This document shows positions 34,732-37,330 of a DNA stretch of 64,000 nucleotides, piece by piece. This DNA is from Yersinia bercovieri ATCC 43970 (lineage in GTDB: Bacteria > Pseudomonadota > Gammaproteobacteria > Enterobacterales > Enterobacteriaceae). The position numbers and the translations under genes were made by a program. The stretch lies in assembly GCF_013282745.1 (NCBI RefSeq), contig NZ_CP054044.1, positions 1,798,001-1,862,000 of the forward strand. Reading direction: 5' to 3'. The number at the start of each line of letters is the position of its first letter. The stretch's first letter is position 1. The notes beneath the pieces are model-generated. The model did no database searches and was not told the origin of the DNA. It saw nothing but the letters and a program-made list of their open reading frames with translations.

Positions 34732-35277
34732 ATGGCAGAGAACCAAAATAATTTGATCTGGATTGATCTGGAAATGACCGGTCTTGATCCTGAACGAGAT
34801 CGGATCATCGAGATCGCAACCCTGGTCACCGATGCTAATCTTAATATCTTGGCAGAAGGCCCGGTGCTGGCGGTTCATCAAACGGATGAGCAGCTTGGGC
34901 TAATGGATGAGTGGAATGTACGTACTCACACCGGCAGTGGTTTGGTTGAGCGGGTTAAAGCCAGCCCATTCAGTGACCATGATGCTGAGCTGCAAACCAT
35001 TGAATTCCTGAAGCAGTGGGTACCGGCAGGTGTTTCACCGATTTGTGGCAACAGCGTGGGTCAAGACCGCCGCTTCCTGTTCCGCTACATGCCGGAGCTT
35101 GAAGCCTATTTCCATTACCGCTATCTGGATGTCAGCACGTTAAAAGAGTTGGCGCGCCGCTGGAAACCTGAAATTCTGGCTGGTTTTAAGAAGCAGAACA
35201 CCCATCAAGCACTGGATGACATTCGTGAGTCGGTGGCAGAGCTGGCCTACTATCGCGAGCACTTTATCCAATCTTAA
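34732..35277 (+). CDS. orn: Oligoribonuclease
   Basis: A 181-residue DEDDh 3'-5' exonuclease that degrades two- to five-nucleotide RNA remnants and pGpG. The catalytic acids are in [26 protein letters not shown] and [11 protein letters not shown], with the His five residues before the last Asp. AGGAAATAAA precedes the ATG. Length equals E. coli Orn. Confidence 0.98.
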
Positions 35278-35358
35278 TTAACCGGTGCTGGTAAAAACAT
35301 CACATTGCTGTTTTAATCAGCACTTAAACTAAAAAATGATTTTTTTGCTTTCAGGGGC

Positions 35359-35386
35359 TTGCGGCAAAACGGATTTCTCGTATAAT
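35359..35386 (+). promoter_or_regulatory. Promoter of the tRNA-Gly cluster
   Basis: TTGCGG (35359-35364) and TATAAT (35381-35386) are separated by 16 bases. A GCGC discriminator follows, and the first tRNA starts about 65 bases downstream. The consensus -10 and GC discriminator are typical of stable-RNA promoters. Confidence 0.75.
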
Positions 35387-35458
35387 GCGCACCCCGTACC
35401 GATGAAGAATTCGCAAGCCTGCGCAGACAGATTCAGTATCGAAAATATAGTATCCCGA

Positions 35459-35534
<76 letters not shown>

Positions 35535-35602
35535 ATTTCTTTCAGTAATGAAGAAATGGGTAGTAACAGAGAAGCAGTGCAGTAGAAAGAAATAAAAGTG
35601 AT

Positions 35603-35678
<76 letters not shown>

Positions 35679-35760
35679 AATTTTTCTCTCTCTTAGTGCC
35701 GTTTTTCTTAAAGTAAATGTCAAATGCTGTCATAACAGCAGGGTGCAAAAGCATCTCAAT

Positions 35761-35836
<76 letters not shown>

Positions 35837-35861
35837 AAATTTTTATTCAATCTTAAATTAA

Positions 35862-36097
35862 TTATCCACAGCCATGTCATGCGCTGCACCGTGCTCTACA
35901 CACAATGTATTAACTTCTTCAACAGAGTTATCCACAATTTCTGTTCTTTTTATATCCAGCTTATAATTTAAGCGATTCTATTTCCTGTTTTCTATCTATT
36001 TGATTTAGCTGAACATATTTTTATATGAAAACGTTATGCCGATCACTTGTGCTTTTTTTTGCGCTTGATTGCCAAGGTGTTTTTATTTTTATGCACA
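35862..36097. other. datA: DnaA-box cluster, candidate datA locus
   Basis: The gene-free gap between the tRNA-Gly cluster and queG carries perfect TTATCCACA boxes at 35862-35870 and 35928-35936 and TTATGCACA at 36089-36097, all in the same orientation. A near-match to the IHF consensus (TATCTATTTGATT, 35993-36005) lies between the second and third box. In E. coli, datA lies at this position and uses DnaA boxes plus IHF to stimulate DnaA-ATP hydrolysis and prevent over-initiation. Equivalence is inferred from position plus motif content. Confidence 0.72.
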
Positions 36098-36181
36098 GGA
36101 AAAGTCCGAGCTTATTTATTACAGAAATAATAAAAAAACAGCAATACCTAACCGTACTTAGTTTCAGGTTATTTAGGGGGA

Positions 36182-37330
36182 TCAGGCGTCGCGTGGCAGG
36201 CCTTTTTCAATGGCCCTCACCAGCCGTTTTTTCTGTGGTGATTGGAGATCCACAATCAGTGTAGACCGTTTTTTCAATTGTTGTGATATTGCCCAATCAA
36301 TATGTTCATCTAGCATCGGGTGTATACCTCGGCGCGCCTCCAGTGCCAACACAATAGTGTCGAGATAGGGCGCATTCCCCAGCGCGACCGCTATATTACG
36401 TAACCAGCGCAAGTGACCAATACGCCGGATGGCAGAACCTTCCGTTACCCGCAAAAATTTCTCTTCATTCCAGGCAAATAAATCCAGTAACTTTGGCGTA
36501 TGCAGCACGGCACGCGGGCTAAAATCTTCTTCATCAGTTAATTGGGAGAAGCGGTTCCAAGGGCAGATCAACTGGCAATCATCACAGCCATAAATACGAT
36601 TGCCCATCAGTGGACGAAACTCTTCAGGTATCGCCCCTTCCAACTCAATGGTCAGATAAGAGATACAGCGGCGCGCATCAACGGTATAGGGAGCAACGAT
36701 AGCCCCTGTCGGGCAGGTAGTCATGCAGGCGACACAGCGGCCACATTGCTCTTCTTGCGGCTTATCGACGGGTAGCGGCAGATCAATTAGCAACTCGCCG
36801 AGAAAGAACCAGGAGCCAGCATCACGATTTAAAATTAGTGAGTGCTTACCAACCCAACCAATCCCCGCTTTAGCTGCCAGTGAGCGCTCCATTATCGGAG
36901 CGGAATCGACAAACGGACGGAAATTTATCGCTTGCTGCTCAAGGCAATAGCTCTGGATCTGGTCACCCAATTTTTTTAGCCGTTGGCGCAATAATTTATG
37001 GTAGTCACGGCCTAATGCGTAACGGCTCACATAACCTAACGATGAATCTTTCAATGTGCTGGCAAATGCCGCCTTGGCAGGCAGATAATTCATTCGCACG
37101 CTGATCACCCGTAATGTACCTGGCAATAGCTCATGAGGCCGGGCGCGCAACATTCCATGGCGGGCCATCCAAGCCATTTCGCCATGATATTGTTTATCAA
37201 GCCATGCCTGCAAACGCGGCTCTTCCGCAGACAAATCAGTATCGCAAATACCAACTTGCTGGAAACCTAGCGATTGCCCCCATTGCTTGATATGTTGGGC
37301 TAATTGATTCAAATCGAGGGGGTGTGCCAT
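36182..37330 (-). CDS. queG: Epoxyqueuosine reductase QueG
   Basis: A 382-residue cobalamin- and iron-sulfur-dependent enzyme that makes the last step of queuosine synthesis on tRNA. Two ferredoxin-type [4Fe-4S] sites are present: CGRCVACMTTCPTGAI, and CDDCQLICPWNRF with CP elements. The N-terminal cobalamin-binding part has HGEMAWMARHGMLRARP. It ends with the family tail RAIEKGLPRDA. Its start codon overlaps the divergent start codon of nnr. Confidence 0.96.
   Translation of the reverse strand: MAHPLDLNQLAQHIKQWGQSLGFQQVGICDTDLSAEEPRLQAWLDKQYHGEMAWMARHGMLRARPHELLPGTLRVISVRMNYLPAKAAFASTLKDSSLGYVSRYALGRDYHKLLRQRLKKLGDQIQSYCLEQQAINFRPFVDSAPIMERSLAAKAGIGWVGKHSLILNRDAGSWFFLGELLIDLPLPVDKPQEEQCGRCVACMTTCPTGAIVAPYTVDARRCISYLTIELEGAIPEEFRPLMGNRIYGCDDCQLICPWNRFSQLTDEEDFSPRAVLHTPKLLDLFAWNEEKFLRVTEGSAIRRIGHLRWLRNIAVALGNAPYLDTIVLALEARRGIHPMLDEHIDWAISQQLKKRSTLIVDLQSPQKKRLVRAIEKGLPRDA

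Follow-up and report, generated by a model that had tools for sequence, protein, structure and literature searches.

What is the cluster of DnaA boxes between the tRNA-Gly genes and queG of Yersinia bercovieri ATCC 43970? In E. coli this place is taken by datA, a brake on replication that works by datA-dependent DnaA-ATP hydrolysis (DDAH), and a preliminary description of the DNA analysed here, a stretch of 64,000 nucleotides (positions 1,798,001 to 1,862,000 of contig NZ_CP054044.1; hereafter the window), had put the gap forward as the candidate datA of this organism. Our analysis supports this proposal by the neighbouring genes, by the order, direction and spacing of the boxes, by the distance from oriC and the side of it, and by conservation in relatives. 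The gap is very probably the Yersinia orthologue of datA and would act, like it, by DDAH.

The DnaA boxes of the gap and their E. coli counterparts

Using the gene coordinates, we confirmed that 345 bases (35837-36181) separate the third tRNA-Gly gene from queG. The gap holds the three perfect DnaA boxes described before, TTATCCACA twice and TTATGCACA once, all on the plus strand, and the window has no other TTATNCACA sites. The site for integration host factor (IHF) between boxes 2 and 3, previously called near-consensus, has one mismatch and lies on the minus strand; we refer to it as the IHF-binding site (IBS). Beyond these sites we found a weak box resembling box 7 of E. coli, the absence of box 4, an additional IHF-like match with one mismatch at 36024-36036 and a conserved stretch upstream of box 3 (Table 1).

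Table 1. Features of the tRNA-Gly/queG region, in positions of the window
Feature	Position	Strand	Basis or remark
Three tRNA-Gly(GCC) genes, counterpart of glyV-glyX-glyY	35459..35836 (35459-35534, 35603-35678, 35761-35836)	+	ARAGORN, Rfam, E. coli neighbours
DnaA box 1 counterpart TTATCCACA (E. coli: ATATCCACA)	35862..35870	+	66 bp 5' of box 2
Putative box 7 counterpart, weak, TCTTCAACA (E. coli: TTGTAAACA, at equal distance)	35916..35924	+	12 bp 5' of box 2
Invariant 15-mer ACAGAGTTATCCACA: end of weak box, linker and box 2	35922..35936	+	Single copy in the genome
DnaA box 2 TTATCCACA, perfect	35928..35936	+	Pattern scan; comparison with E. coli and relatives
IHF site (IBS) AATCAAATAGATA	35993..36005	-	One mismatch to WATCAANNNNTTR; starts +65 bp from box 2
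Conserved stretch, IBS to box 3	36028..36088		Alignments; relative entropy
Blocks in the conserved stretch: AAAACGTTAT, GATCACTTG, TTGATTGCCAA, then a T-rich run up to box 3	36028-36037, 36041-36049, 36065-36075		
DnaA box 3 TTATGCACA, perfect	36089..36097	+	161 bp 3' of box 2
queG, epoxyqueuosine reductase gene	36182..37330	-	Open reading frame; same place in the E. coli annotation; name from synteny and homology

Could the boxes have come together by chance? Their number in the window is ordinary, with three TTATNCACA sites observed against 2.25 expected from shuffling (42 of 100 shuffles reach three), and across the genome DnaA boxes are hardly enriched, at 63 + 59 = 122 sites versus 51 + 51 = 102 for a reversed control pattern. 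Since the count in the window matches chance, the signal is the clustering and not the number. A simple Poisson estimate at genome density gives about 0.0026 clusters of three boxes in 236 bp per genome, in agreement with the earlier judgement that a random origin is very unlikely, and the genome has a single place where TTATNCACA follows TTATCCACA after an interval of 150-172 bases. Moreover, the layout is kept in all 82 sequences compared below, and this conservation rules out a chance cluster, the probability of which we regard as negligible.

The corresponding stretch of E. coli MG1655 reads psd, rsgA, orn, glyV-glyX-glyY, datA gap, queG, nnr, so that datA does have the same neighbours there, as had been claimed; from rsgA to nnr, both order and orientation are the same in the window. 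Alignment of the gap with E. coli datA had been suggested as a check, and the boxes match in order, in their single direction and in spacing. Box 1 and box 2 are 66 bp apart in the gap and 67 bp in E. coli (same script for both), the weak box and box 2 are 12 bp apart in each, box 2 and the IBS 65 bp in each, the IBS and box 3 are 96 versus 97 bp apart, and boxes 2 and 3 are 161 versus 162 bp apart. The relevant passages of PMC5742627 and PMC10950094 describe boxes 7, 2 and 3 and the IBS of E. coli datA as essential and box 4 as stimulatory, yet not essential in vivo; according to them the boxes share one direction and the lengths of the intervals matter. Among the essential sites, boxes 2 and 3 are perfect in the gap, the IBS has one mismatch and the putative box 7 has two, as in E. 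coli. The E. coli box 7 was placed from the text of a review and not from a printed sequence; from the start of the candidate, TTGTAAACA, to the end of box 3 it is 183 bp (L001), which fits the published minimum, and from the start of its counterpart TCTTCAACA it is 182 bp.

The map position agrees as well. oriC was recognized by its similarity to that of E. coli, at G000:C1:1365064-1365472. It is 468.5 kb away from box 2, or 10.8% of the 4.33-Mb contig, and the distance between datA and oriC in E. coli is 466.8 kb, 10.1% of the chromosome; side of oriC and orientation are the same. In contrast to E. coli, which carries a reverse box (box 4) 12 bp 3' of box 3, the Yersinia gap has no such box. 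Further differences are that box 1 is perfect in the gap and that the IBS there has one mismatch; the sequences between the tRNA genes and box 1 and after box 3 differ, and the start codon of yjeV is absent from the gap.

Two other kinds of DnaA-box clusters were considered for comparison. Like the gap, the DnaA-reactivating sequences DARS1 and DARS2 are chromosomal clusters of DnaA boxes, and DARS2 also uses IHF, but their core boxes I and II oppose each other, whereas the three perfect boxes of the gap all lie on the plus strand. oriC of the same genome likewise has DnaA boxes; it is 468 kb away, its boxes run in both directions, and the 15-mer of Table 1 is absent from its region. In E. coli, one oriC box shares ACAGAGTTATCCACA with box 2 of datA (L225 676-690; window 35922-35936), presumably the box named R4. 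We rejected the 15-mer as a general DnaA context, since E. coli has it at oriC and the oriC region of our genome lacks it. In the literature, DARS2 is reported as conserved in other proteobacteria (PMC8682772, PMC5742627), including Yersinia pestis (PMC8682772), and the relevant passages of these two papers do not mention datA outside E. coli. Among the papers listed by the literature searches, no title or opening abstract described datA outside E. coli, subscription literature lying outside the scope of the search.

By analogy with E. coli, IHF at the site between boxes 2 and 3 would bend the DNA and join two groups of DnaA molecules. The resulting head-to-tail assembly of ATP-DnaA may then hydrolyse its ATP and leave ADP-DnaA, which would prevent extra initiations once oriC, about 468 kb off, has fired. 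Binding, bending, hydrolysis and the effect on initiation are all carried over from work on E. coli, where, according to the passages available to us, IHF binding after initiation turns on the hydrolysis of DnaA-bound ATP.

Conservation of the layout among relatives

We compared the best 80 of 174 queG relatives in named genomes, together with the window and E. coli, which gave 82 sequences from 21 genera as labelled (the window counted as Yersinia). The nearest named relatives of queG are those of Yersinia, with up to 98% identity. In all 82 sequences, TTATCCACA (box 2) is followed by box 3 at 159-164 bp. The spacing is 161 bp in 59 sequences, 164 in 10, 162 in 6, 160 in 3, 163 in 3 and 159 in 1; as box 3 was sought 155-171 bp from box 2 by best match, with ties going to the one nearest 161, the search bounds the range, not the sharp peak. 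Box 3 is perfect in 81 sequences and has one mismatch in the remaining one (L052). The best IHF match, sought from +40 to +119 relative to box 2 with ties resolved to +65, starts at +65 in 67 sequences, at +66 in 12, at +67 in 1 and at +54 in 2; it is free of mismatches in 25 sequences and has one in 50 and two in 7. Within E. coli, PMC4585315 compared 59 genomes and found 12 whose IBS departs from that of MG1655. Around box 2, the 15-mer ACAGASTTATCCACA is present in 82/82.

Other parts of the cluster vary more. In 22 sequences the weak box departs from the consensus by one base and in 51 by two, so that 73/82 stay within two mismatches. Box 1, with at most one mismatch, was seen in 39/82 only and is for this reason regarded as optional, even though 12 of the 13 other Yersinia loci have it. 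Box 4 is present at its E. coli place in 17 sequences and was not found in 65. The comparison with other Yersinia that had been called for gave a clear result, the layout of boxes 2 and 3 being found, with a spacing of 161 bp, in 13/13 loci. Conservation had been expected to show which boxes are essential; boxes 2 and 3 are kept throughout the 82 sequences, and boxes 1 and 4 are optional.

The cluster might also serve purely to titrate DnaA, soaking up molecules without hydrolysis of ATP. datA was originally described as a titration locus, as stated in the part of PMC5835720 that we consulted, and three perfect boxes with a weak site would bind DnaA. Yet titration needs no fixed spacing of 161 bp, no fixed IHF position and no single box direction, and it is exactly these that are conserved, so we consider pure titration improbable. 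With sites, spacings, map position and conservation established here, an orthologue of datA acting by DDAH is the reading that we prefer.

Several observations weigh against it. A reverse box with at most two mismatches was not found between box 3 and queG, and none of the 13 other Yersinia loci has box 4 at the E. coli place. In our gap the IBS departs from the consensus at one base; in the other Yersinia loci it does so at one base (10 loci) or two (3 loci). In 9/82 sequences the putative counterpart of box 7 has three mismatches. Two loci, Escherichia sp. ESNIH1 (L068) and Pseudescherichia vulneris (L074), keep boxes 2 and 3 but lack a good IHF match at the expected position, the best one being at +54; IHF control is possibly reduced there. 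Finally, one genome of 4.9 Mb in the family of the window (G706; L228, L229) has a queG that is cut short and lies next to orn, with tRNA-Gly and datA missing, which is either a natural deletion or a fault of the assembly.

A conserved stretch between the IHF site and box 3

The strongest conservation between the recognized sites lies just before box 3. With genera weighted equally, relative entropy reached 0.573 bits per column in the spacer from the IBS to box 3, as compared with 0.226 in the spacer from box 2 to the IBS, 0.205 on the 5' side of the weak box and 0.243 on the 3' side of box 3. The first of these values exceeds the second with p 2.6e-10, a figure to be taken as a guide only since columns were treated as independent. 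In the spacer before box 3, ATCRCTTG is present in 66/82 sequences, and TTGA followed by AA 4-6 bases on is present in 75/82. The 16 losses of ATCRCTTG fall in Xenorhabdus (4), Pantoea (6), Erwinia (2), Acerihabitans (1), a locus labelled Enterobacter (1), Yersinia (1) and Pectobacterium (1), and they cover all loci of the set from Xenorhabdus, Pantoea, Erwinia and Acerihabitans and those labelled Enterobacter. TTGA...AA was lost in seven sequences, namely in four of six Pantoea, in one of two Erwinia, in Fukatsuia and in the Enterobacter-labelled locus.

Several explanations of this conservation were tried. An RNA hairpin or terminator between the IBS and box 3 was rejected, because RNAalifold gave no consensus pairs in the 29 of 82 sequences used. 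Coding of yjeV was rejected because, judged by eye, the alignments do not preserve its ATG. The IHF-like match at 36024 was likewise rejected as a second conserved site; it has one mismatch here, but outside Yersinia the bases that match do not persist, again judged by eye. A rhythm of 12-bp blocks before box 3, as expected of a DnaA filament, could not be established, the power peaks at 10.5 and 12.5-13 bp standing barely above the 95% level of shuffled columns.

The cited passages on E. coli datA make no mention of the stretch at 36028-36088. We infer that it acts at the level of DNA, most simply through weak DnaA contacts running from box 3 toward the IHF bend. Within the complex it probably belongs to the side of box 3, for instance as a set of low-affinity DnaA contacts. 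It is conceivable, if somewhat doubtful, that datA has a further functional part here: the roughly 60 bp before box 3, with AAAACGTTAT, GATCACTTG, TTGAWTGNCAA and the T-rich run, might be a low-affinity DnaA array or the site of a third protein, and might be linked to the factor that times the release of IHF from E. coli datA. This tentative proposal includes that the element would predate the family of the window, another family of the order keeping the half with boxes 7 and 2 beside queG with a different second half.

Neighbouring genes and distribution of the element

In E. coli, read-through from the tRNA-Gly genes is described as a prerequisite for IHF release, with a further, unidentified factor needed too, in the passages on datA that were available. 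Among our 80 related loci, tRNA-Gly lies within 250 bp upstream of box 2 in 46 and 408-3617 bp away in 5, and it was not found within about 3.8 kb upstream in 25; four contigs are too short to tell. Of the 76 readable loci, 30 therefore have tRNA-Gly displaced or none found upstream, and as a neighbour it is optional for the presence of datA. If the element works at such loci, control by read-through as published cannot be universal with tRNA-Gly as its source; other genes might supply the transcription.

These loci also bear on the idea that the boxes regulate transcription, attenuating or terminating that of the tRNA-Gly operon or queG with the help of DnaA, and were conserved for that purpose. 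According to PMC10950094, tRNA read-through in E. coli is indeed attenuated by DnaA bound to box 2 and IHF bound to the IBS. Against this, the element is intact in the loci with tRNA-Gly displaced or not found upstream, as well as in one (L105) where queG was not found; the lack of consensus RNA structure before box 3 in the 29 sequences used points the same way, and the sole terminator-like match in 35250-36300 sits at 36209-36228, within queG. A role in transcription as the reason for conservation is hence very improbable, more so than titration, and we retain the orthologue of datA.

In two Pectobacterium loci (L015, L018) and one of Brenneria (L045), ahpC-ahpF (about 5.6-8.0 kb in the locus) occupies the place upstream of datA that tRNA-Gly takes in other genera, and it is transcribed toward datA. 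The genes of L015 and L045 were named by likeness to the identified proteins of L018; in L018, tRNA-Gly lies beyond ahpC-ahpF. Serratia sp. Ag1 (L016) and a Photorhabdus (L048) have other genes upstream of datA. Extra DNA stands at the junction of tRNA-Gly and datA in loci of several genera, namely L016 (6013-7729), L044, L048, L062 and L067, which suggests that the junction is an insertion hot spot.

How far does the element extend? We used 42 of the 82 sequences to build a profile from sequence alone (R1). With a cut-off of E 1e-8 it matched once in 190/294 genomes of the family of the window, some of which had supplied sequences to the profile. In 104 genomes of the family R1 had no such match; of the 20 listed, 19 are 2.4 Mb or smaller and the other is G706. 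In an order-wide sample, 20 genomes of the family matched at 1.2e-10 or better, and three listed family genomes of 1.0-1.2 Mb gave no match. The best match outside the family was in G372 of family f187 (3.4e-7), beside queG and with boxes 161 bp apart. Counting any match with E up to 0.01, 158/295 genomes of the order-wide and 142/369 of a class-wide sample were hit. The weaker matches are mostly background, because the best class-wide value besides that of the window itself was 2.9e-6 and because tblastn found neither queG nor orn in any of 29 class loci (L126-L154); three loci of family f201 (L121, L124, L125) nevertheless adjoin queG at similarly weak scores. In the locus L105 (G384), datA lies between three tRNA-Gly genes and nnr, and queG was not detected in this genome at thresholds of E 1e-40 and 1e-8, which indicates that the element is kept for its own sake.

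For other families we read 40 of 59 queG places from 16 families, up to 800 bp beside queG. Perfect TTWTNCACA boxes were found in three places. The one in f187 has two, at a distance of 161 bp; the one in f191 has three, of which the second and third are 165 bp apart, and lies downstream of four tRNA-Gly genes; and one f196 genome has a single box at the edge. The other 37 places have none. The six places read in f193 and f205 have no perfect box; five of them have tRNA-Gly within the fetched stretch.

Family f201, possibly Vibrionaceae, has queG in 29 of 31 genomes, and one locus was read in each of the 29 (L155-L183). Like datA, the cluster found there stands on the queG side, carries ACAGASTTATCCACA in 21/29 loci and is preceded by tRNA-Gly or tRNA-Met in 23/29, the other six being pieces of 467-838 bp. 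Unlike datA, it has an inverted box in 27/29 loci, which starts 19 bp from box 2 in 24 of them and 18 bp from it in 3, on the 3' side, with one changed base in either box of the pair in some loci. Instead of box 3 at +161, TGTGNTTAA and then TTTTCCACA about 48 bp on, nearer queG, are present in 26/29. L173 and L182 have no inverted partner, and L173, L175 and L182 no distal pair. By its sequence, f201 appears to carry a rearranged, half-conserved version of datA beside queG. From the survey of boxes beside queG, the datA-type element looks confined, among the families read, to the family of the window, f187, f191 and, in altered form, f201.

Overall, Yersinia datA is an expected orthologue that is well supported, and the parts worth following are the conserved stretch before box 3 and the informative distribution. 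Our data provide an evolutionary footprint of datA, in which boxes 2 and 3, their spacing, the position of IHF and the 15-mer are kept, while box 1, box 4 and the neighbouring tRNA genes are optional. The natural loci without tRNA-Gly upstream are test cases for the published model that makes the timely release of IHF depend on tRNA read-through.
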